Virus record (IMG/VR): IMGVR_UViG_3300020056_000156
Coordinates: 1-24,782 of that record
From: a virus
Reading direction: 5' to 3' (one strand)
Length of the DNA stretch: 24,782 nt
How positions within the stretch are numbered: position 1 is the first letter of the stretch; every line of letters begins with the position of its first letter. This document shows, one piece after another, positions 474 to 24,782 of this stretch. The notes beneath the pieces are model-generated. The model saw only the letters and a program-made list of their open reading frames with translations, was not told the origin of the DNA and ran no database searches. The position numbers and the translations under genes were made by a program.

Positions 474-1553
474 ATGGGAAGTTGGGTATTTCAGCCGCAG
501 CCTGGTCCTGAGGGGTCTGACGGCAAGAGCGCCTACGAGGTTGCTGTTGAGAACGGCTTTTCGGGCACCGAGCAGGAGTGGCTGGACTCGCTTGTTGGAG
601 CAGACGGCCCTCCCGGCGCTGACGGCGCTGACGGCGCTCCCGGCGATCCCGGCGATCCCGGCGATCCCGGCGCTCCCGGCGCTGATGGCAACGTCGCGGC
701 GGCTCCGTACGAGCAGATTGAGCCAGTTGGCCCGACGCTTGAGCTTGCAGATTCCACTTTTGGTCACCTGCTGCCTAACACGGCTCACTTTGACCAGATT
801 GAGATGTTTCCGGTTGGCATGATTATTTCATGGACGGGCACTTACGGGCAGGTGCCTAACGGCTGGCTGCTTTGCCACGGACAGAACCTCACAGGCTACG
901 AGACTAAGCTTATGCGCCTGTACCAGATGATTCCCGACTTTCACGGCGTCGGGTTCTTCCATACTCCCGACTTCCGGGGCCGGTCGCCTATCGGCACAGG
1001 CAACATCGGAGATGACGATTACGGCCCGAACAGCCCAGCGACCATGCCGATTGATCTGGGGCTTAGGGCAGGCGACAAGCGCGTAGGCGACCATATGCAC
1101 CAGATCGTTTCAAACCACAACGCGCAACTTTATGCCGACACCGGCCCGGTAACCGGATCCGGAAACATCGTTCAGATAGAAACCGGCCCGAAAGGCGGAT
1201 CATCGGCGACCACGGCGGGCCTGAATGAGTTTGTGGCAACAAGCGCCATACGCCGTGGGGCGTATCCGCCCTCTGGCGGCCTCGGTTCCCACCTTTACGA
1301 CCAGCCAAAACGGTGGAATGCAATGCCTCACGGCTACGGGGGAAACATTCACCCGGTCACGGGCGTCAACTTCCTGATCTACTGCGGACAGGATACTTCT
1401 GAGATGAAGGATCTGGACAACCTTGGCAACGTACCTGAGGTCACTACGCGCATGATGATTGAATCGCGGCTGGCCGAGGCGGGCATTGACCCAGAGGAAG
1501 TCAAGATGCTCAAGGAACAGCTTGAGGCGCTTAAGACCACGGAGGCGAAGTAA
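474..1553 (+). CDS. Tail fibre protein with collagen-like stalk and tail-collar domain
   Basis: This 359-residue virion appendage protein probably binds the host surface. Residues 16-41 (SDGKSAYEVAVENGFSGTEQ and following) form the motif often seen before collagen-like phage repeats. Residues 42-72 are ten Gly-X-Y triplets (GPP, GAD, GAP, GDP), expected to form a triple-helical stalk. A phage tail-collar domain follows at about 112-175, with PVGMI, VPNGWLLCHG and TPDFRGRSPIGTG. The end region with INFLIY-like VNFLIYCGQ closes the fold. The last 36 residues are a charged helix (TTRMMIESRLAEAG...TEAK) that is repeated in the gene starting at 2306. The ATG at 474 has GGGAGG upstream and a promoter at 441. 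TAATG overlaps the next gene. The fibre and collar assignment is strong; the receptor is unknown. Confidence 0.85.
   Translation: MGSWVFQPQPGPEGSDGKSAYEVAVENGFSGTEQEWLDSLVGADGPPGADGADGAPGDPGDPGDPGAPGADGNVAAAPYEQIEPVGPTLELADSTFGHLLPNTAHFDQIEMFPVGMIISWTGTYGQVPNGWLLCHGQNLTGYETKLMRLYQMIPDFHGVGFFHTPDFRGRSPIGTGNIGDDDYGPNSPATMPIDLGLRAGDKRVGDHMHQIVSNHNAQLYADTGPVTGSGNIVQIETGPKGGSSATTAGLNEFVATSAIRRGAYPPSGGLGSHLYDQPKRWNAMPHGYGGNIHPVTGVNFLIYCGQDTSEMKDLDNLGNVPEVTTRMMIESRLAEAGIDPEEVKMLKEQLEALKTTEAK
597..689 (+). repeat. Collagen-like 9-bp tandem repeat inside the fibre gene
   Basis: Short in-frame repeats (GGCGATCCC, GGCGCTGAC, GGCGCTCCC) encode ten Gly-X-Y triplets. Three GGCGATCCC units are consecutive and nearly identical at the DNA level, so copy number could change by slippage and alter stalk length. 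This is part of the 474-1553 coding sequence, not a separate element. Confidence 0.85.
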
Positions 1554-2305
1554 TGCAGTGGACTACTAACGGCAACAGTATCACACTGCCCTACGTCGCA
1601 CCTGAGGACGACCTACAGTCAACGCCTGCTACGATCAAAGCGTTGGCCGAGGCTATTGTGGTTGAACTAGAGGCTACGTCTTCAAGTTCATTGCCGGTGG
1701 GCACCATTATTCAGGCTGTCGCACAGCCAAGCGACCTGTGGATTCTCTGCGACGGCGGCATGTACGCGAAGGACGACATTGGCGAGAGGCTTTATGAGGC
1801 CCTTGACGAGTACTGGTCGCACGGCGAGATTTCAGTCCCGGACGGCGACCCGATGCCTGTGCCCGACCTCCGGGGCCGCGTCGTGATCGGCGCGGGCGCC
1901 GACGGGCACCCAGCAAACACCGTTGACCGCCCCATTGGCAGGCGCGGCGGCGATACTCGCGAGCAACGGCACACCCACCAGCCTGCAGGGGCAACTCTGA
2001 GCACCCTGTATCAAAACGGCGGATCGCCGTTGCACGGCTGGAACCCTCCGGGCATTGACGCAGCCTCTCCACAGACAAGCTTCGCAGGCGAGGGTTACTC
2101 CGGCAACATGCCGCCCTACGCCGTGATCCCGTCGTTCATCTACGCCGGGAAGCCCGGTCCCTTTACGAAGGTCGGGGACATCAAGGACACCTATCCGGCA
2201 CCTAACCCGTCGCCCGCCAGCACGCTCGACATTGAAGACGGCAAGATTCCGGTGCCCCCCGACGTTGAGAACAACTCACCCGACGGATACTGGGAGGCTT
2301 CATAA
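1553..2305 (+). CDS. Tail-collar domain protein 2
   Basis: This 250-residue appendage protein starts at an ATG overlapping the previous stop (TAATG). A GGAGG ribosome site is embedded in the last codons of the upstream gene. The N terminus (SITLPYVAPEDDLQSTPATI, then KALAEAIVVELE) resembles the start of the collar protein at 12208, suggesting a common attachment module. A tail-collar domain covers about residues 47-120: LPVGTII, LWILCDGGMY and VPDLRGRVVIGAG. A HTHQPAG His-x-His motif follows at about 140, and NMPPYAVIPSFIYAGKPG marks the usual end of the fold. The Pro/Asp-rich tail (PVPPDVENNSPDGYWEAS) is unlike its neighbours and lacks the TEAK helix. It is probably a fibre or receptor-binding subunit; its partner is unknown. 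Confidence 0.8.
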   Translation: MQWTTNGNSITLPYVAPEDDLQSTPATIKALAEAIVVELEATSSSSLPVGTIIQAVAQPSDLWILCDGGMYAKDDIGERLYEALDEYWSHGEISVPDGDPMPVPDLRGRVVIGAGADGHPANTVDRPIGRRGGDTREQRHTHQPAGATLSTLYQNGGSPLHGWNPPGIDAASPQTSFAGEGYSGNMPPYAVIPSFIYAGKPGPFTKVGDIKDTYPAPNPSPASTLDIEDGKIPVPPDVENNSPDGYWEAS

Positions 2306-3190
2306 ATGGCAGTTGAGTACGACCCAAACGGCACACCGATTCTCACTAATGACTCGCTCATTAGTGACGTGCCTCCGTACACCCAGGCCCTTGCGGCAAC
2401 CGGTGTTGGCGGTGGTGTCAGCGGTATCAAGGACTCTAAGTTCAACGACCTGCAGCCCGCCGATCCTGTGACGCAGTACCCCGTTGGGGTTGTTCAGATG
2501 TGGTCGGGCTGGTACGTCGAACGCTTTGATGACTACCCGTGGAGTCAAACCGTTGTGCCGGTCCCCAACGGGTGGTTGCTGTGTGATGGCCGGACTTATG
2601 ACCCGGACTATTTCACCGCGCTACACGAAGTCTGCCCTGCGTTCAAGGGCGGCTCCACCTTCCGCGTCCCCGACCTCCGGGGCCGGATGCCGGTGGGTAT
2701 GACGTTCGGCCTGGAGTGGGACGGCGATTACGACCGTCCCATCAAGGCCATCTACACCCCCGGCGAAATGCACGGCGATTGGCGACTACAGCGCCACATG
2801 CACTACGTTGAGCCGACCGCGAAGTCCAACGAGTTCAACCCTAGTGGTGGCGACGATTGGTACTGCACATTCACGCCTAATGGCAACGGCCTGATCTATC
2901 CCCCGGAGAAGCACCGGACCACCTACAACATCCCGGCGAAGGATGGTGCCTACGGCCTCGGAGAGAACATGCCTCCGTACACCGCAATCAACTTCATTAT
3001 CTACACGGGCAAGCCGACACTGGATGAGAACGGCGACATCCTCCCCGAGTGCGGGCAGGGCCCGGAGGAACCATACGCCACGACGCGCCAGATGATCGAA
3101 CAGCGGCTTGCGGAGGATGGCATTAGCGAGGATGAAGTTACGATGCTCAGGGAACAACTCGAGGAAATCAAAAAGACGGAGGCCAAGTAA
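2306..3190 (+). CDS. Tail-collar domain protein 3
   Basis: This 294-residue appendage protein begins directly after the previous stop, with GGGAGG a few bases upstream. Its first 30 residues (MAVEYDPNGTPILTNDSLIS...) match those of the next gene at about 20 of 30 positions, which suggests a shared docking peptide. The tail-collar domain spans about residues 57-135: YPVGVVQMWSG, VPNGWLLCDGRTYD and FRVPDLRGRMPVGM. RHMHYVEP carries the His-x-His turn, and NMPPYTAINFIIYTGKPT ends the domain. The last 36 residues are a helix (TTRQMIEQRLAEDGI...TEAK) identical at 25 of 36 positions to the end of the 474-1553 protein. It is likely a receptor-binding fibre subunit. The gene ends TAATG into the next one. 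Confidence 0.82.
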   Translation: MAVEYDPNGTPILTNDSLISDVPPYTQALAATGVGGGVSGIKDSKFNDLQPADPVTQYPVGVVQMWSGWYVERFDDYPWSQTVVPVPNGWLLCDGRTYDPDYFTALHEVCPAFKGGSTFRVPDLRGRMPVGMTFGLEWDGDYDRPIKAIYTPGEMHGDWRLQRHMHYVEPTAKSNEFNPSGGDDWYCTFTPNGNGLIYPPEKHRTTYNIPAKDGAYGLGENMPPYTAINFIIYTGKPTLDENGDILPECGQGPEEPYATTRQMIEQRLAEDGISEDEVTMLREQLEEIKKTEAK

Positions 3191-4602: not shown

Positions 4603-4827
4603 ATGGAATCACAGCAGCTGACACCTGAGGAAATCGTAGACGAAGTTGACGACCCGCGTGACGCTCCGCCGTCGGCTACGGTTGTGCGTTTTCAGTGGCT
4701 TCGGTGGCTTCTAGAGAAGACGCCGGGTCTTCTTGAGGATAACCCGAACGTGACTGAGCTCAAGACTCGCATTCACGACTACCAAATCGAAAGGGGCGAG
4801 CGTGCCGCTGGACCCGAGGAAGTGTAA
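4603..4827 (+). CDS. Small acidic hypothetical protein
   Basis: This 74-residue protein follows the lysin by 8 bases, with a strong AAGGAG site before ATG. The N-terminal third is acidic (TPEEIVDEVDDPRDAPPSA), followed by an aromatic, basic helix (VVRFQWLRWLLEKTPGLLED) and a charged helix. No known domain is recognised. The end overlaps the HNH gene by 26 bases, so the two are probably translationally coupled. The same TTAAGGAGCATCATG gene junction is used before 12963, which supports this start. The position between lysin and packaging genes gives no clear role. Confidence 0.65.
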   Translation: MESQQLTPEEIVDEVDDPRDAPPSATVVRFQWLRWLLEKTPGLLEDNPNVTELKTRIHDYQIERGERAAGPEEV

Positions 4828-7761: not shown

Positions 7762-9633
7762 ATGGCAGATACTTCTGACGCTACACCTAAACTGGATATC
7801 ATGGAGCTGCAGCAGCGCAAGGAGTATGCGCGTAAGTCGCGGCGTGTCTGGGAGGGTGAGTGGTGGGCTAACCTCGCTTATGTGAACGGCGAGCAGTACG
7901 TCAAGTGGGATCTTAACACAAACCGCTTGATTGAGATGCACCAGGTGCCGGGTAGCGAGCGCGTTATCCGCAACATCTGCATGCCCATCACGCGACGTGA
8001 GCGAGCCAAGATTCTTAAGACTATCCCGACGGTTGAGGCCCTGCCTAAGACTGAGAAGGAAGACGACCAGTACATTGCCAAGGTGATAAACGCTCAGTTC
8101 CGTGACTGGCGCAAGAAGTGGAAGATGGACCGCCGCCTTCGGAACGCATCGTTCTGGGTCGTCACTACTGGTAACGTCTGGATGAAGTGGTACTGGGATA
8201 GCGCGAATAAGTGCGTGCAGACGGCGGTTGTCCCACCGTTTGACATTTACCCCGACCCTTATGCCAAGTCCATGCTGGACTGCCGCTGGGTCATTCAGAC
8301 GCAGTTCCTTGACCTGCAGACTGCTAAGGAGCGTTACGGCAAGGACTTCAAGGCGATGGAGATGGACGCCCTTGCAGGTCTTGAGGGCAGGCTGTACGCG
8401 AACTACGCGGACGCCTTCTCCGCAAACCTGCCCGGTGTGGTTGTGAACGAGTACTGGGAGCCGCCGAGCGCGACGCGACCCAAGGGCGCGTACGTGGTGT
8501 GGGCCGGTCACGAGATGGTCCATGAAGGTCCGTTCCCGTACAAGCATGGTAAGCTGCCGTTCACCCACATCGGGCACATTGAGCGTGCGAACACTAAGTG
8601 GTACGCATCGGTCATGGACTACATCCGAGGCCCGCAGGAGGAGCTTAATCGTGTCGAGTCGCAGATTTTGGAGAACCGGAACCTCGCCAATGGCAAGTGG
8701 TTCATCCCTCACACGCTTGAGCTTGAAGCGGACCCGGACGCCAGCCCGCGCCAGATTCTTCGCGCGTCGGGAGGCCCGCCGGACGCGGCTCCGCAGTTCA
8801 TCGAGATTTCCGCGCTCCCGTCGTGGGTAGCGAACGAGTCTGACCGTATTACCATGTTCGCTCAGGATATGGCGGGTCAGCACGAGGTAAGCCGGGGCGG
8901 CGTGCCCGGTCGTGTGGAGGCCGCGCAGGCTATCCAGCTGCTGCAGGAGACCGATGACGAGGTGCTTAAGGACACCATTCACTCAATGGAAGAGGCGCTG
9001 TCGGAAGGCTACTGGCAGTGTGCCAACCTGCTCAAGCAGTTTGGCAACCCGAAGCAGATTCTTAAGGCGTACGACGACGAGGGCCGCGTTGAGGTCATGG
9101 AGTTCATGGTACAGGACCTGCCCGACGGAAACGACCTGCAGATTACTACTCAGACCACCACCGGCCTGCCTCAGAGCATCGCTGGCCGTTGGGACCGGGT
9201 GCTGAACCTGTGGCAGTACAAGATTATTGAGGACCCGAAGCAGGCTATGGAGCTTCTGAACCTCGCGCCTGAGAACCCTGACCTGCTGCCCGAGGCTCAG
9301 GACAAGGCACAAGCTTACCGGGAGAATAAGCTGATGAAGGGCGAGCTTGACGGCGAGCCCCGGCCTATTGAGCCGTATCAGTGGAACAATCACCCGGTCC
9401 ATATGGAAGAGCACCGCCGTTACATGAACTCAGAAGAGTACCGGCAGCTGGACCCTCAGACCCAGCAGTTCTTCCATTTCCACCTTGAGCAGCACGAGCA
9501 GATGCACTTGGAAGAGGTGCAGAAGCAGGCTACAATTGAAATGACTGCTCAGGGACAACCGCCTATGCCTCCTGAGGGGGGCGGAGGCCCAATGCCACCG
9601 GGACCCGGTGGACCAGCGCCAGTACAGGCATAG
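7762..9633 (+). CDS. Portal protein
   Basis: This 623-residue protein forms the dodecameric ring at one capsid vertex through which DNA is packaged and ejected. The size and order (after terminase, before scaffold and capsid) match P22-like podovirus portals. Supporting text includes the N-terminal YARKSRRVWEGEWWANLAYV, which resembles the opening of portal proteins. VIRNICMPITRRERAKILKT and VVPPFDIYPDPYAKSMLDCR (clip/wing-type) follow. MDYIRGPQEELNRVESQILE, a long helical region, lies at about residues 285-310. The C-terminal tail is Gln/His-rich and then Pro/Gly-rich (PPMPPEGGGGPMPPGPGG), which suggests a flexible barrel end. The ATG has AAGAGG upstream. Confidence 0.9.
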   Translation: MADTSDATPKLDIMELQQRKEYARKSRRVWEGEWWANLAYVNGEQYVKWDLNTNRLIEMHQVPGSERVIRNICMPITRRERAKILKTIPTVEALPKTEKEDDQYIAKVINAQFRDWRKKWKMDRRLRNASFWVVTTGNVWMKWYWDSANKCVQTAVVPPFDIYPDPYAKSMLDCRWVIQTQFLDLQTAKERYGKDFKAMEMDALAGLEGRLYANYADAFSANLPGVVVNEYWEPPSATRPKGAYVVWAGHEMVHEGPFPYKHGKLPFTHIGHIERANTKWYASVMDYIRGPQEELNRVESQILENRNLANGKWFIPHTLELEADPDASPRQILRASGGPPDAAPQFIEISALPSWVANESDRITMFAQDMAGQHEVSRGGVPGRVEAAQAIQLLQETDDEVLKDTIHSMEEALSEGYWQCANLLKQFGNPKQILKAYDDEGRVEVMEFMVQDLPDGNDLQITTQTTTGLPQSIAGRWDRVLNLWQYKIIEDPKQAMELLNLAPENPDLLPEAQDKAQAYRENKLMKGELDGEPRPIEPYQWNNHPVHMEEHRRYMNSEEYRQLDPQTQQFFHFHLEQHEQMHLEEVQKQATIEMTAQGQPPMPPEGGGGPMPPGPGGPAPVQA

Positions 9634-9936: not shown

Positions 9937-10785
9937 ATGAGCGAGACAGCAGAGGCACAGGCAGGCGACGGCGGACTTGAGGTTTCCCCGGAGGATGTTG
10001 CTCCGAAGGAGTCAAAGTCTGCTGGAAGCAAGCCCAAGACCGAAAGCAAGGAGAAGTCGTCACAGCCCAAGTCTGAGGCAAAGAGTTCTGACGAGAAGTC
10101 TGAGCCGAGGCAGGAGGCCAAGGAGGACGGAACCGCTCCGTGGGCCAAGGACCTTGCGGATCGTGGTCTTAACGACCCCAACTTTGACAGCTATCTTCGT
10201 GAAGTCTGGCAGCCGCGCATGACGCAGTTCGAGCAGGACCTGGGCAACTGGTCCAACCTGTTCGGTGGCGATATGGAGCGAGCCCAGATTATGGCGGGAC
10301 TGGCAGATGCGTTGGAGCAGGACCCGGAAGGTACTTATCAGCAGATCGGGGAACTTCTCGGTTTGCTGACTGACAGCGAGGAAGGCTCCCCTGTGGGAGA
10401 GGACCAGCTTGCAGGTGATGGCACGGATGAGACAGACGGTACAGAGCCGGATGAGTACCGGCAGTGGGTTATGTCCAAGATGCAGGAGGAACAAGAGGCA
10501 AAGCAGGACGCCGCATATGAGGACCTTCTTGCTGAGCTTGAGACTGCACACCCCGGATTTGACCGTGAGCTGTTTCATGCAGCCATCGTCGCCTTTGATG
10601 GCGACCCCGATCAGGCGCTTACGTGGTACATGAAGTACCACCGGGCACCTGAGCCAGCAGCTGAGATGGACGGCCCGGACCCAGTGGGTGAGGGCAATCC
10701 CGTTCCTCCTACTCAGGAGACTTACTCGGGAATTGGCGACGCGATTGCAGCCTTTATGTCGGAAGACAAGACTGCACGCTCGTAA
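9937..10785 (+). CDS. Scaffolding protein
   Basis: This 282-residue internal assembly protein is expected to direct capsid subunits into a procapsid and then leave. It lies between portal and major capsid protein, the standard position. The N-terminal 70 residues are disordered and highly charged Lys/Glu/Ser (ESKSAGSKPKTESKEKSSQP). The centre contains SYLREVWQPRMTQFEQDLGN and acidic helices (LADALEQDPEGTYQQIGELL). The C-terminal part (WVMSKMQEEQEAKQDAAYED, then FDRELFHAAIVAFDGDPDQA) is helical and likely contacts the capsid. There is little sequence conservation in this family, so the call rests on position, charge and helix content. ATG has AAGGAGAA upstream. Confidence 0.82.
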   Translation: MSETAEAQAGDGGLEVSPEDVAPKESKSAGSKPKTESKEKSSQPKSEAKSSDEKSEPRQEAKEDGTAPWAKDLADRGLNDPNFDSYLREVWQPRMTQFEQDLGNWSNLFGGDMERAQIMAGLADALEQDPEGTYQQIGELLGLLTDSEEGSPVGEDQLAGDGTDETDGTEPDEYRQWVMSKMQEEQEAKQDAAYEDLLAELETAHPGFDRELFHAAIVAFDGDPDQALTWYMKYHRAPEPAAEMDGPDPVGEGNPVPPTQETYSGIGDAIAAFMSEDKTARS

Positions 10786-10804: not shown

Positions 10805-12124
10805 ATGGCGGATACCGCTAGTTTCAGCGCAGCGATGAAGACCAAGTTTATTGGGCCGATTCGTGACCAGCTGAACTCAAACAAGATTCTTCTCTTCGGT
10901 CTGCGTACCCGTGACGGTGACGACAAGCAGGACATGCCTCACGCCTCGCGCGACTTTAGGGGAATCGTTGCAGACTCGACCGGCATTGACTTTGTTGGTA
11001 ACGAGTTCCGCATCCCGCTCCGCACTTCGCGGAATCAGGGTACTGGTGCCCGAGCTGAGAACGCTATTCTTCCGGCTCCGGGGAACCAGGGTTACAAGTA
11101 CATCAGCGAGGCTCTTCGCTACTTCTACGGTCTGTTCAACATCACTGGTCAGCTTCTTAAGGCCAGTGCCACGAACGAGGGTGCGTTCCGTCGCGCCCTG
11201 CAGGCTGAGATGGAGGGCCTTACGGACGACCTTAAGCGCCACGTCAACATCCAGGCTTACGGCCTCGGTGACGGCGTGATTGCCACGGTCGCTTCGACTA
11301 CTGTTGACGCGAAGGGCGACGCCCTTCCCGCTAACACTGTTCAGCTTGACTCGACCGTCTACTTTCAGGGTGGCGAGTACGTGGACTTCTACGCGGCTGC
11401 TAACGTGCCGGGTAGCGCTCCGCTGAACGCGACTGCTGTGTACGTGACGCAGATTGACCGTGAGCGTGTCACGGTGACGTTCAGCGCGGACCCCTCGGGT
11501 TACGTCGCTGACGGCCAGGTCATTGTCCGCGCATCGTCTGACTCGACTCAGGCTGTGCCGAACAACGACTACATGGACGCGATCAACGGTCTGCGTAACA
11601 TCATTGACGACACCGAGGCGCTGCATGGTCTTGACCCTGCTAACGCTGGTGAGTCTTTCTGGCGCTCGTCTGTGGTGGACGCGGAGGGTAACACGGTTGG
11701 TGATGACCTGCTTCGTCGCTTGAAGGACGCTGTGGGCTTTGAGTCCGGCTCCGACGAGGAGATGATTCTCATTACTACTCGTGGCATTCGTAACCGCTAC
11801 GCGCAGGAGCTCGTGGCCTACAAGCGCTTCAACGACGCTCAGTCGGTGAAGCTGCGCGGTGGGTTCACGGCGCTCATGTTTGACGAGACTCCGATGGTTT
11901 ACGACGACCACTGCCCCTCCGGGCACCTGTTCGCCGTGAACACGGACGCCATGTTCTGGTCGCAGATGAGCGACTGGGAGTGGATGGAGGAGGACGGCGA
12001 GGTTCTTAAGTGGGAGCCGCGCTATGACCGTTACGTCGGTATCCTGTTCAAGTACTGCAACCTCGGTACTTGGGCGCGTAACCGTCACGGTAAGATCGTC
12101 AACGCTGAGGATGACGTTAAGTAG
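10805..12124 (+). CDS. Major capsid protein
   Basis: This 439-residue protein is the probable HK97-fold shell subunit. It follows scaffold, has a strong AGGAGA ribosome site at 10793-10798, and is closed by a strong hairpin terminator, as expected for the most abundant product. The N-terminal arm (TKFIGPIRDQLNSNKILLFG) is followed by FVGNEFRIPLRTSRNQGTGA. An E-loop-like region and a long helix (EGAFRRALQAEMEGLTDDLK) come next. A Thr/Val-rich beta domain (about 185-265) may be an inserted or protruding domain. The A-domain-like C terminus includes MILITTRGIRNRYAQELVAY and GGFTALMFDETPMVYDDHCP. No protease gene or cleavage site is visible. Confidence 0.9.
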   Translation: MADTASFSAAMKTKFIGPIRDQLNSNKILLFGLRTRDGDDKQDMPHASRDFRGIVADSTGIDFVGNEFRIPLRTSRNQGTGARAENAILPAPGNQGYKYISEALRYFYGLFNITGQLLKASATNEGAFRRALQAEMEGLTDDLKRHVNIQAYGLGDGVIATVASTTVDAKGDALPANTVQLDSTVYFQGGEYVDFYAAANVPGSAPLNATAVYVTQIDRERVTVTFSADPSGYVADGQVIVRASSDSTQAVPNNDYMDAINGLRNIIDDTEALHGLDPANAGESFWRSSVVDAEGNTVGDDLLRRLKDAVGFESGSDEEMILITTRGIRNRYAQELVAYKRFNDAQSVKLRGGFTALMFDETPMVYDDHCPSGHLFAVNTDAMFWSQMSDWEWMEEDGEVLKWEPRYDRYVGILFKYCNLGTWARNRHGKIVNAEDDVK

Positions 12125-12148: not shown

Positions 12149-12180
12149 CGGGGTGGGGTCTGAAATACGGCCCCACCCCG
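12149..12180 (+). terminator. Strong hairpin terminator after the capsid gene
   Basis: The arms CGGGGTGGGG (12149-12158) and CCCCACCCCG (12171-12180) are perfectly complementary. The stem can extend by a C-G and a G-U pair around an 8-base loop (TGAAATAC). No run of T follows, so it may be leaky, act as an mRNA 3' stabiliser for the capsid message, or terminate by a tract-independent route. It lies just before a promoter, which fits separating the capsid unit from the next one. Confidence 0.8.
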
Positions 12181-12207: not shown

Positions 12208-12954
12208 ATGCCTGAGACACCAATCTTTAATATTCCGTGGACCGAGGATGACGATTACGTCAAGGAATGGCCCGCGCTTTCTAAGGCCATTGCCGAGGCT
12301 GTCGAGGCCGCGTGCGGCATCGCCACGTCTGTGCCTCAGGTCACCCCACCGGGCGCAATGACTCAGTTCGCGGGTGATAAGGCGCATATCCCGGCAGGCT
12401 GGCTTGTCTGCGATGGATCGTCCTACTCGTCTAACCCAGCAGGGCTTTATTACAACCTTTACAAAGCTATCTCAACTCGCTTTGGTTCGGACGGCGCCGG
12501 ACCAGATGGATTTGATCGGTTCAAGGTTCCTAACATGAACGGACTCTTTCCGCGTGGTGTGGTAAATGACCTTGGTATCGGTGACGCTGGTAAGGGCGGC
12601 TCGGATAACGCAGTCGTCGTGAGCCACACTCACTCAGGATCAGGCACCACGAGTTCTGCTGGTCACCACAGCCACCACATGGATCTCGCTGGTCATCACT
12701 CGCATACTCAGCATCGAACTTACTCCGCAAACTATGTCTATGGGCTTTCATCGGGTCCGGGTCAGTACGCGGTGAACTATGGCGAATACGCGCAGGTGCT
12801 GGATTATCAGGGCAATCATAGCCACGGCCTCCACGGAGCCGGTGACCACACTCACACTTTCAGTGTAACTACCGGCGGTGCAAGCGGTGAGTCGGATGGC
12901 ATCGGTAAGAACGTCCCGGCCTACATGCCAATGTACTACATCATCAAGATTTAA
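12208..12954 (+). CDS. Tail-collar domain protein 4 with multiple His-x-His motifs
   Basis: This 248-residue appendage protein is probably a collar, head or short tail fibre, given its place between capsid and connector genes. The N terminus (FNIPWTEDDDYVKEWPALSK, then AIAEAV) resembles that of the collar protein at 1553. The tail-collar domain lies at about residues 47-118: PPGAMTQFAG, IPAGWLVCDGSSY, FKVPNMNGLFPRG. Five His-x-His sites follow: His140/142, His154/156, His164/166, His204/206 and His214/216. In known phage fibres such motifs bind metal ions along a trimer axis. The end NVPAYMPMYYIIKI is the typical closing strand of collar proteins. The two GHHSH units are adjacent near-repeats. 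The domain call is strong; the location on the virion is inferred. Confidence 0.83.
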   Translation: MPETPIFNIPWTEDDDYVKEWPALSKAIAEAVEAACGIATSVPQVTPPGAMTQFAGDKAHIPAGWLVCDGSSYSSNPAGLYYNLYKAISTRFGSDGAGPDGFDRFKVPNMNGLFPRGVVNDLGIGDAGKGGSDNAVVVSHTHSGSGTTSSAGHHSHHMDLAGHHSHTQHRTYSANYVYGLSSGPGQYAVNYGEYAQVLDYQGNHSHGLHGAGDHTHTFSVTTGGASGESDGIGKNVPAYMPMYYIIKI

Positions 12955-13355: not shown

Positions 13356-14278
13356 TGCCACTACGTGACCCAAGAATTGCTCCCATCAGGGATAGCCGAG
13401 GCGACAGGCATGAAGACCACCGTTACACGGGCTACGGGAACGAGCACGAGGTTCGAGATGAAGGGAAGTATCTCGGTGACAACTTCCACAGGGACTCGTT
13501 CCTGTTTCAGATAGACCCTCCGCCGTACGCCGCTGACGACAATCAGGACCATATTAATTATTACGGGAAAGACACGGGCGTTCACGCACGCGGGATGAGC
13601 CCGGACGGCTACCCCCACGGTAAGGAGCCTTATCCGGGGAACGACAGTAACCAGCAAAGGCTTTTCGGGGACAGTGATCTTCCCGTTCCTGACCCGTTTA
13701 AAGAGTGGGGGGTTCAGGAGTTCAAGTCCAAGTACCCGCCGGGGAAGAAGGAGAACAGGCAGTGGTACGCGAGCCACATCTACGGACGGCTTGATCCGAG
13801 CGGGCACAGGCGCTTCGGTGACACTCTGGGCAAAGGCGGCATGGACTCCATTGACCGCTGGTGGAACGTGAGTGACTTGATTGGTCACGGATTGATGGAT
13901 GAGCTGCAGAAGCCCGGCGACGACGACGGCATGTCGGATGAAGCGTGGCAGCGCAAGAAGATGAAGAAGGCGCTTTACATGCAGAAGCAGACTCGCCCCG
14001 ACGGCACTGAGACTGACGTAGCTGATCTTTACGGCGCGAAGGATAAACTGCCCTCCCAGATGGAGCGCCACGACCCGGAGCTGTTTGAGTCTCTTGAACT
14101 CTCGCCGGGCGACAACCCGCAGTACGAGCTTGGCAAGCCCTCCGCTCGGGAGCGTGCTACTAAGAAGTTTGCCGCCAAGCAGGAGAAGGCAGAAGAGGAT
14201 TACGCTAAGAAGGGCGTTACCGGCCTAAATGACATGCTGGCCTCTGCACTTGGCCTTGGTAAGAAGAAGAAGGGCTAA
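13355..14278 (+). CDS. Hypothetical hydrophilic virion-associated protein
   Basis: This 307-residue protein is strongly hydrophilic and rich in Asp, Gly, His, Arg and Tyr in its N-terminal half (DRHEDHRYTGYGNEHEVRDE), which looks disordered. A more ordered centre follows (YASHIYGRLDPSGHRRFGDT, WWNVSDLIGHGLMDEL). The C-terminal part is lysine-rich and helical, ending in ASALGLGKKKKG. I recognise no domain. It is placed between the collar protein and the adaptor-like protein, so a connector or head role is possible. It starts with TAATG overlap and ends with TAATG overlap, so expression is coupled to both neighbours. Confidence 0.7.
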   Translation: MPLRDPRIAPIRDSRGDRHEDHRYTGYGNEHEVRDEGKYLGDNFHRDSFLFQIDPPPYAADDNQDHINYYGKDTGVHARGMSPDGYPHGKEPYPGNDSNQQRLFGDSDLPVPDPFKEWGVQEFKSKYPPGKKENRQWYASHIYGRLDPSGHRRFGDTLGKGGMDSIDRWWNVSDLIGHGLMDELQKPGDDDGMSDEAWQRKKMKKALYMQKQTRPDGTETDVADLYGAKDKLPSQMERHDPELFESLELSPGDNPQYELGKPSARERATKKFAAKQEKAEEDYAKKGVTGLNDMLASALGLGKKKKG

Positions 14279-23283: not shown

Positions 23284-24372
23284 ATGGCCGTCCCTAATCT
23301 AGAAAGCTTTAGGAAGTCCCTTAAGGGCACACCCATGTACTCGGAGGCTGCCGCCATCTACGACGTGGCGATGCGTAACGGTGTGAACCCTGCGTTCGTG
23401 TCGGGGCTGGCCAAGGCTGAGTCGTCCTACGGCACCGCCGGGTTCGCGCGGGGGCGGAAGAACCCTTACGGCTACGGCGTGTTCAGCGGCGGGCCGAACA
23501 ACGGGTATGGGTCGTATGCCGATGCAACGGAGGCCATGACCAAGGGGCTTCGTGGGAACCTGTACTACGGTGCTGGCAAGCGCTCCATCGCAGACGTGAT
23601 GAACACCTATTCACCGCCGAGCTCGAACAACACCGGCCAGCACATTCAGAACATCATCAACGCAGGCCGGGCCACAGGTGGCGACGCCTCGCAGGTGTTC
23701 CTTGACGGCCCGACAGGCTACGAGGGAACTGCTGGCGACGACAACACTGCGGCTGCCAAGAAGGCGCTGTCGCCGTCGGGTTCGGGTGACCCGATGCAGC
23801 AGGCCATCGCCCAGAGCATCACCAGCGGCGACGATGAGGACGACGAAAAGGAGTCGCTGTTCAATACCGTTATGAACGTGGCGATGAAGCAGGCGATGCA
23901 GGGCCAGACCGAGCCACAGTCTGACGGTCACGAGGGCCACGATCACGGGGACGGAGGCGGAGGCGTCGGCATCCTTGCGAACGACGGCACCCAGCCGGGC
24001 CTGTCGAAGTGGGGCGGGCCACACGACCACGGCAAGCGGGCGCTCGGCAACTGGCAGTCAGACACGGCGTGGGACCTCGGCGGGCCCGCAGGCACAGCGA
24101 TCTACTCGCCGTTGCCGGGCCGGGTTGTGAAGGTCAGCGACTGGGACGACCGGGCGCAGTTCCGTGGGCAGGGCGTCACGATTGACCACGGCAATGGCAA
24201 CCTTGCGTTCTACAAGCACCTCGGCAATGTCGCAGTCAAGCCAGGGCAGCAGGTGGGTCCGGGCACCCTGCTCGGCGGGCTGGCCGACGGCACCGGGGGC
24301 GGGCCTCACCTGCATCTCGGCGGCTCGTCTAACTCATTCCTAGAGAGCCTAATCGGCTACTATCTAAGGTAG
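23284..24372 (+). CDS. Virion peptidoglycan hydrolase: lysozyme-like domain plus M23-like peptidase
   Basis: This 362-residue protein probably opens the host wall locally at infection. Residues about 18-130 resemble a lysozyme/transglycosylase fold: a putative catalytic Glu46 in SGLAKAESSYGTAG, then RKNPYGYGVFSGG. An Asp/Gly/His-rich linker runs from 140 to 250. The C-terminal M23-type peptidase has WDLGGPAGTAIYSPLPGRV (Asp264), the catalytic-type His312 in YKHL, and HLHL (His342, His344). The usual first zinc-ligand His aligns with Asp260 in QSDTAWDLGG. It starts one base after the preceding stop. Its place in the virion structural block rather than next to the holin candidate points to entry, not lysis. 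Confidence 0.8.
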   Translation: MAVPNLESFRKSLKGTPMYSEAAAIYDVAMRNGVNPAFVSGLAKAESSYGTAGFARGRKNPYGYGVFSGGPNNGYGSYADATEAMTKGLRGNLYYGAGKRSIADVMNTYSPPSSNNTGQHIQNIINAGRATGGDASQVFLDGPTGYEGTAGDDNTAAAKKALSPSGSGDPMQQAIAQSITSGDDEDDEKESLFNTVMNVAMKQAMQGQTEPQSDGHEGHDHGDGGGGVGILANDGTQPGLSKWGGPHDHGKRALGNWQSDTAWDLGGPAGTAIYSPLPGRVVKVSDWDDRAQFRGQGVTIDHGNGNLAFYKHLGNVAVKPGQQVGPGTLLGGLADGTGGGPHLHLGGSSNSFLESLIGYYLR

Positions 24373-24381
24373 GAGTAATAT

Positions 24382-24528
24382 ATGTATGACGGTATTATGG
24401 TGCGGGCATGGTACGACTGCCCTTGGATTCTGTACCCTAACTGGTTCACTTGGAAGCTAGGGCAGCGATGCCCTGAGCTCATTGGGTTCAGGGATCTTGA
24501 CACCATCCACGTCAGTCTGCCAGCCTAG
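24382..24528 (+). CDS. 48-residue hypothetical protein
   Basis: A short frame from ATG 24382 to TAG 24526-24528 has AGGAG at 24371-24375, 6 bases upstream. The product is Trp-rich with two Cys (WYDCPWILYPNWFTWKLGQR). It has no known domain and is the last rightward frame, overlapping the end of the leftward ORF by 17 bases. The ribosome site and position right after the hydrolase support translation; function is unknown. Confidence 0.5.
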   Translation: MYDGIMVRAWYDCPWILYPNWFTWKLGQRCPELIGFRDLDTIHVSLPA

Positions 24529-24757
24529 CACGCCACCCATGTAGGTCGAAGATCGGGCAGTAGACCCCCGGCGGGTGGCCCATGTTCTTGTTCAGCATGT
24601 CCTCGCACGGGCGACAGTAGCTGCTGCGTCCGTACAGGCCGTGCTCGTGCTGGCGGAGGGTGACCAGCAGTACCTGTTCCCCGCAGAACGTACACACACG
24701 GTGTGTACGTTCTGCGGGGGTCTTCGGTATGGGGATATTACGTTCGTCTATCGGCAA
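24512..24757 (-). CDS. Zinc-ribbon hypothetical protein on the opposite strand
   Basis: This leftward 81-residue frame starts at TTG (24755-24757), just after a TAG, and ends at 24512-24514. It has two CxxC pairs, VCTFCGE at about residues 21-27 and YCRPCED at about 47-53, a spacing that fits a small zinc ribbon. A lone Cys and several His lie further on. A perfect 19-bp inverted repeat falls in its first third. The weak start and lack of an obvious ribosome site keep confidence moderate. If real, it marks the start of a leftward, probably early, gene block converging on the late genes. Confidence 0.5.
   Translation of the reverse strand: MPIDERNIPIPKTPAERTHRVCTFCGEQVLLVTLRQHEHGLYGRSSYCRPCEDMLNKNMGHPPGVYCPIFDLHGWRARLAD
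24679..24719. repeat. Perfect 19-bp inverted repeat with 3-base loop
   Basis: The arms CCCCGCAGAACGTACACAC (24679-24697) and GTGTGTACGTTCTGCGGGG (24701-24719) are exact reverse complements around ACG. A stem this long and perfect is far beyond chance in this window. There is no T tract on either side, so a classical terminator is unlikely. It lies in the convergent region and inside the leftward zinc-ribbon frame. Confidence 0.9.
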
Positions 24758-24782
24758 CTACATCGCGCAGGTGCCGTCAACG

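Follow-up and report, generated by a model that had tools for sequence, protein, structure and literature searches.

Why does a long, perfect palindrome lie inside a protein-coding gene at the very point where the late genes of a phage run into a leftward reading frame? The question is raised by the right end of a viral DNA stretch of 24,782 nucleotides (IMG/VR record IMGVR_UViG_3300020056_000156; the whole stretch is hereafter called the window). Positions 24679–24719 read CCCCGCAGAACGTACACAC-ACG-GTGTGTACGTTCTGCGGGG, i.e., two exactly complementary 19-nt arms (24679–24697 and 24701–24719) around a 3-nt loop. An earlier note on this DNA had described a 41-bp perfect palindrome with two 19-bp arms, a 3-base loop and no T tract, which proved exact on re-reading the sequence: neither strand has a T tract after the hairpin, the rightward tail being GTCTTCGGTA and the leftward tail AACAGGTACT. 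With a folding energy of −36.7 kcal/mol on the weaker strand, the palindrome is the top-ranked hairpin of the window, whose runner-up has 10-bp perfect arms, and it is the longest perfect short-loop inverted repeat among the 891,847 bases of phage DNA compared (19 versus 16 for the next). Its RNA folding is likewise exceptional on both strands (z = −7.2 leftward, −4.9 rightward; 0 of 200 shuffles equally stable). The arm has no second copy within the window at up to 3 mismatches, the exact 19-mer found no match in a scan of IMG/VR from which the window's own record was possibly excluded, and Rfam gave weak, chance-level matches only, mainly to microRNA models.

The rightward late genes of the window comprise terminase, portal, capsid, SU10-type adaptor and M23 peptidase. 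The M23 peptidase gene (23284–24372, + strand) is the last large one and is followed by a last rightward ORF of 48 aa (24382–24528, + strand), which is 83% identical in one relative and has no convincing match beyond it. From the other side comes an 81-aa zinc-binding (treble-clef/zinc-ribbon-like) ORF with a TTG start (24757–24512, − strand), which carries a CxxC...CxxC pattern and a weak, below-cut-off Pfam match to zf_C2HC_14; a 34-residue stretch of it has a 56% match in a 322-kb phage contig. Its 3′ end overlaps the 48-aa ORF by 17 nt. Only the last codons (VDGTCAM-stop) of the leftward gene upstream of it fall within the window (24758–24782, − strand); the relative's counterpart is the ribonucleotide reductase (RNR) large subunit, ending in TDGACAL-stop, and the RNR stop and the zinc-binding ORF start lie 0–1 nt apart. 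The palindrome occupies codons 14–27 of the zinc-binding ORF: on the leftward strand the right arm forms the first half of the hairpin and codes for PAERTH, and the left arm forms the second half and codes for VCTFCG(E), including the first CxxC. Both the convergent setting and the zinc-ribbon coding location that the earlier note had assigned to the palindrome agree with this gene layout.

The palindrome lies only 63 bp from the contig end, a point on which the earlier note was silent and which could suggest an assembly or amplification artefact. The only close relative in viral and genome collections is G007 (L067; IMG/VR 3300028829_003755), an independent 43-kb contig with the same gene order around the palindrome and a two-unit plan, in which leftward early genes on the left are followed by the rightward late genes and then, at the right end, by the leftward zinc-binding ORF and RNR. 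Its zinc-binding ORF aligns through the palindrome unbroken, on both sides, at 88% identity. The 38 nucleotide differences are distributed 7/5/26 over codon positions 1/2/3, that is, mainly at third positions, and the residues encoded by both arms are those expected from the relative. The same codons form a quasi-palindrome in G007 with 17 of 19 positions paired (16 Watson-Crick and one G-U; −26.3 kcal/mol), which ranks second among the 23 hairpins of its genome. With the genes shared, the frame intact across the site and a quasi-palindrome at the equivalent codons, G007 argues for a genuine palindrome rather than an assembly error, and we consider a contig-end artefact extremely unlikely. No further relatives of the zinc-binding ORF, the 48-aa ORF or the M23 protein were found in the viral and genome collections beyond G007; two candidates, L070 and L071, were dropped, their matches being short, chance-level or domain-only. 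The region was unmatched among GenBank phages and plasmids by DNA and among phages by protein, and an RNR search returned 43 other distant phage RNRs, none of them followed by the zinc-binding ORF.

To what extent could the protein itself dictate such symmetry? We sampled synonymous codons according to the phage's own usage while keeping the amino acids fixed. The residues PAERTH and VCTFCG do predispose the arms to some pairing (on average 13 of 19 pairs under the null), but the 19 pairs, the energy or the 19-nt arm of the window were reached in 0 of 3000 trials. In the corresponding test on G007, 5 of 3000 samples attained its 17 pairs and 2 of 3000 its energy; this result is not independent of the first, since the outer stem is common to both by descent. 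Protein sequence and codon usage therefore do not account for the palindrome. Both arms code for conserved protein in an intact frame and are complementary beyond what protein and codons need. Perfect inverted repeats whose two arms code for conserved protein are also found in the mitochondrial genomes of Nematomorpha (PMC6649704), where they are numerous and up to 284 bp long, whereas the window has a single one, at a transcription-unit boundary.

Between the window and G007 there are three differences per arm and two in the loop, and the exact arm sequence is not kept. The earlier note had proposed that the arms should be conserved as a pair in close relatives. This holds only in part: 17 of 19 pairs are kept in the one close relative, but not above codon chance. 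With the amino acids and unchanged codons fixed, at least 17 pairs arise in 23% of codon choices (P = 0.23), and thus this pair of sequences is by itself no proof that the structure was selected. One double change (C-G to A-U), considered as proof of structure through compensatory evolution, was dropped for the same reason.

The main rival starts from this pair of sequences. A fortuitous, functionless coding quasi-palindrome might have been perfected by polymerase template switching (quasi-palindrome correction): PAERTH and VCTFCG permit near-complementary codons, and a strand switch would then have copied one arm onto the other. The repeat is indeed imperfect in one relative and perfect in the other, one event could yield three differences in one arm, and arm homogenisation of short inverted repeats is documented, also within genes, and was first proposed in phage (PMC8604942 and references there). 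However, the differences affect both arms and the loop, so a single event from a relative-like ancestor would be insufficient. Mutation clustering was also considered as proof of template switching and was dropped, as 8 differences in 22 nt are unexceptional against a gene maximum of 9. Nor would the process explain the excess of the G007 hairpin over its codon null. We regard this account as rather unlikely for the palindrome as a whole; it could account for the final gain of two pairs, from 17 to 19, which is compatible with a terminator. Selection rather than mutation would, in our reading, have made the arms perfect.

We therefore turned to the position of the hairpin in other phages. Relatives identified by capsid and portal similarity were the Arthrobacter phages Jasmine, Casserole and Adat, Microbacterium phage Shocker, Cellulosimicrobium phage DS1, and the environmental phages ctEqG8 and ctLwi270; because the named ones infect Arthrobacter, Microbacterium and Cellulosimicrobium, the host of the window phage is probably an actinobacterium. 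Hairpins were ranked per genome by weaker-strand energy and the best one in the 400 nt that follow the last late gene was taken, with junction coordinates from the record annotation or, for G007, from homology. This junction hairpin ranks first in the window, Adat and Shocker, second in G007, Jasmine and DS1, third in Casserole and fourth in ctEqG8. Five of six lineages (the window's, Jasminevirus, Shocker, DS1 and ctEqG8) thus have a top-four hairpin no more than 400 nt from the last late gene; in ctLwi270, the most distant phage tested, no top hairpin was found within that span. With one genome per lineage, the enrichment at the junction gave approximate Fisher p-values of 5.8e-5 (six lineages) and 3.5e-4 (without the window), for a 400-nt span chosen once the junctions of Jasmine and Shocker were already known; for DS1, ctEqG8 and ctLwi270 the junction regions were set before their hairpins were viewed. 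The hairpin sequences are unrelated among lineages and U-poor, with the exception of Jasminevirus, which has TTTT rightward. Template switching leaves these top hairpins at the junctions of other lineages unexplained, and the recurrence of position sets the palindrome apart from known quasi-palindrome correction.

Jasminevirus, Shocker and DS1 each carry the junction hairpin in an intergenic stretch downstream of the late genes. In ctEqG8 (L075) it is a perfect coding palindrome with 14-nt arms (14001–14039) at the late/early junction, inside a leftward HNH_3 gene and over the residues HPYEIVSHKDG, and 0 of 1000 codon-null trials reach it. The junction hairpin hence lies in the coding sequence of two unrelated genes, the zinc-binding ORF and HNH_3.

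Among the four options offered in the earlier note, position speaks for the terminator-type "bidirectional transcription barrier", as relatives, too, have a high-ranking hairpin past their last late gene. Going by sequence comparison, the palindrome is real and non-random, and it is most likely a hairpin of terminator type, unusual in lying within coding sequence. More specifically, we give somewhat better than even chances to a U-poor 3′-end or termination hairpin of the late operon (24679–24719), made from synonymous codons of the gene that runs towards it. At the convergent late/early junction, a strong RNA hairpin would define where the rightward late transcripts end, whether it stops RNA polymerase as a U-poor, "I-shaped" terminator or blocks 3′ exonucleases. 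Codon choice would have accommodated it within the leftward zinc-binding ORF because there is next to no intergenic space, this ORF and the last rightward ORF overlapping at their 3′ ends. The rightward RNA would be untranslated antisense at the palindrome, and the hairpin could therefore fold at once. The leftward mRNA would be translated from the preceding gene straight into the zinc-binding ORF, and ribosomes would thus hold the hairpin open. We infer both the termination or 3′-end protection and its dependence on direction.

How does the palindrome compare with known terminators? It is GC-rich, as is the hairpin of a canonical intrinsic (Rho-independent) terminator, but lacks a U tract directly 3′, and a terminator scan found no canonical T-tract terminator at the window's junction. 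U-less terminators are on record for mycobacteria, members of the phylum that also includes the hosts of the named relatives, although the class is contested (reviewed in PMC12288462). The palindrome resembles these "I-shaped" terminators (Unniraman 2001 and Ahmad 2020, as cited in that review) in having a GC-rich stem and no poly-U where a transcription unit ends, and in that the named relatives of the window phage infect Actinobacteria. It differs from them in lying 150 nt past the last rightward stop (from 24528 to 24679) instead of within about 50, in its location inside convergent coding sequence, and in that its terminating activity is presumed. According to Czyz 2014, as cited in the same review, mycobacterial RNA polymerase requires a U tract. 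The absence of a U tract, the 150-nt distance, the lack of such a hairpin in ctLwi270 and the non-significant pair retention with a single close relative all count against a terminator.

Bidirectional intrinsic terminators at convergent gene ends offer another comparison, as they too place one hairpin, similar on both strands, between converging units. Canonical ones are intergenic and have T tracts on both sides, whereas the palindrome has a T tract on neither side and lies inside coding sequence.

Alternatively, a hairpin on the leftward RNR/zinc-protein mRNA might serve RNA processing or translation control, for instance through RNase III cleavage or ribosome slowing at codons 14–27, in keeping with a perfect 19-bp duplex that begins 38 nt after the first base of the start codon and with a start that adjoins the preceding stop. 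Yet the junction hairpins of Jasminevirus, Shocker and DS1 lie outside the early mRNA, and cleavage would destroy the ORF that contains the hairpin. This function appears improbable to us, although an RNA processing hairpin, as the earlier note had also envisaged, is not separable from a terminator-type one on sequence alone.

The remaining options of the earlier note, an operator or a recombination or replication site, found no support. A DNA palindrome acting as such a site, or in packaging, would fit the perfect dyad symmetry and the ability of either DNA strand to fold alone (−24.3 kcal/mol). Still, the arm is unique in the window, its sequence is not exactly kept in G007, the junction hairpins of the relatives are unrelated in sequence and no promoter-like site adjoins the palindrome, which makes a DNA site very improbable.

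If the palindrome is indeed a 3′-end hairpin of the late operon, compact phage genomes can place the border between transcription units within a gene that is being translated, and the passage of ribosomes would by itself give one palindrome an effect in one direction and not the other. Tentatively, we extend this to a possible capacity of a lineage of actinobacteriophages to embed the terminator of the late operon in the coding frame of any convergent gene that holds the junction. One DNA segment might then serve as a leftward protein code and a rightward stop hairpin, with translation picking the active face, and this arrangement would have had two or more origins, one in the zinc-binding ORF of the window's lineage and one in the HNH_3 gene of ctEqG8. 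The junction hairpins of Shocker, Jasmine and DS1, which are named, culturable phages, would provide a natural test set for the disputed U-less stopping by actinobacterial RNA polymerases.

Further hairpins and motifs were observed elsewhere in these genomes. A strong hairpin, mostly without a T tract, lies directly 3′ of the major capsid gene in the window (12149–12180, + strand; the window's second-strongest hairpin, without a T tract), in G007 (27242–27272) and in related phages (L072 11760–11795, L073 13668–13694, L074 11727–11760, L076 11663–11696 and ctEqG8 1234–1263). In the window it is followed by the promoter-like motif TGTGATATAAT. An extended −10-like motif, TG(A/C)TATAAT, recurs just before genes on the transcribed strand with no evident −35, in the window at 441, 7393, 12190 and 17267 (+ strand) and in G007 at 12540, 16151, 22310 and 32209 (+ strand) and at 43061 and 4563 (− strand); by their placement these are probably the phage's promoters, one of them ahead of the leftward RNR gene. 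The early region of G007 has strong U-less hairpins at 9462–9496, 11106–11147, 11413–11453 and 4649–4695, one of which has 19-nt arms (89%) and a 3-nt loop, and one canonical T8 terminator at 10319–10353 (− strand). By eye, positions 474–3190 of the window contain three consecutive, similar tail-collar-like genes, the first with a collagen-like repeat.
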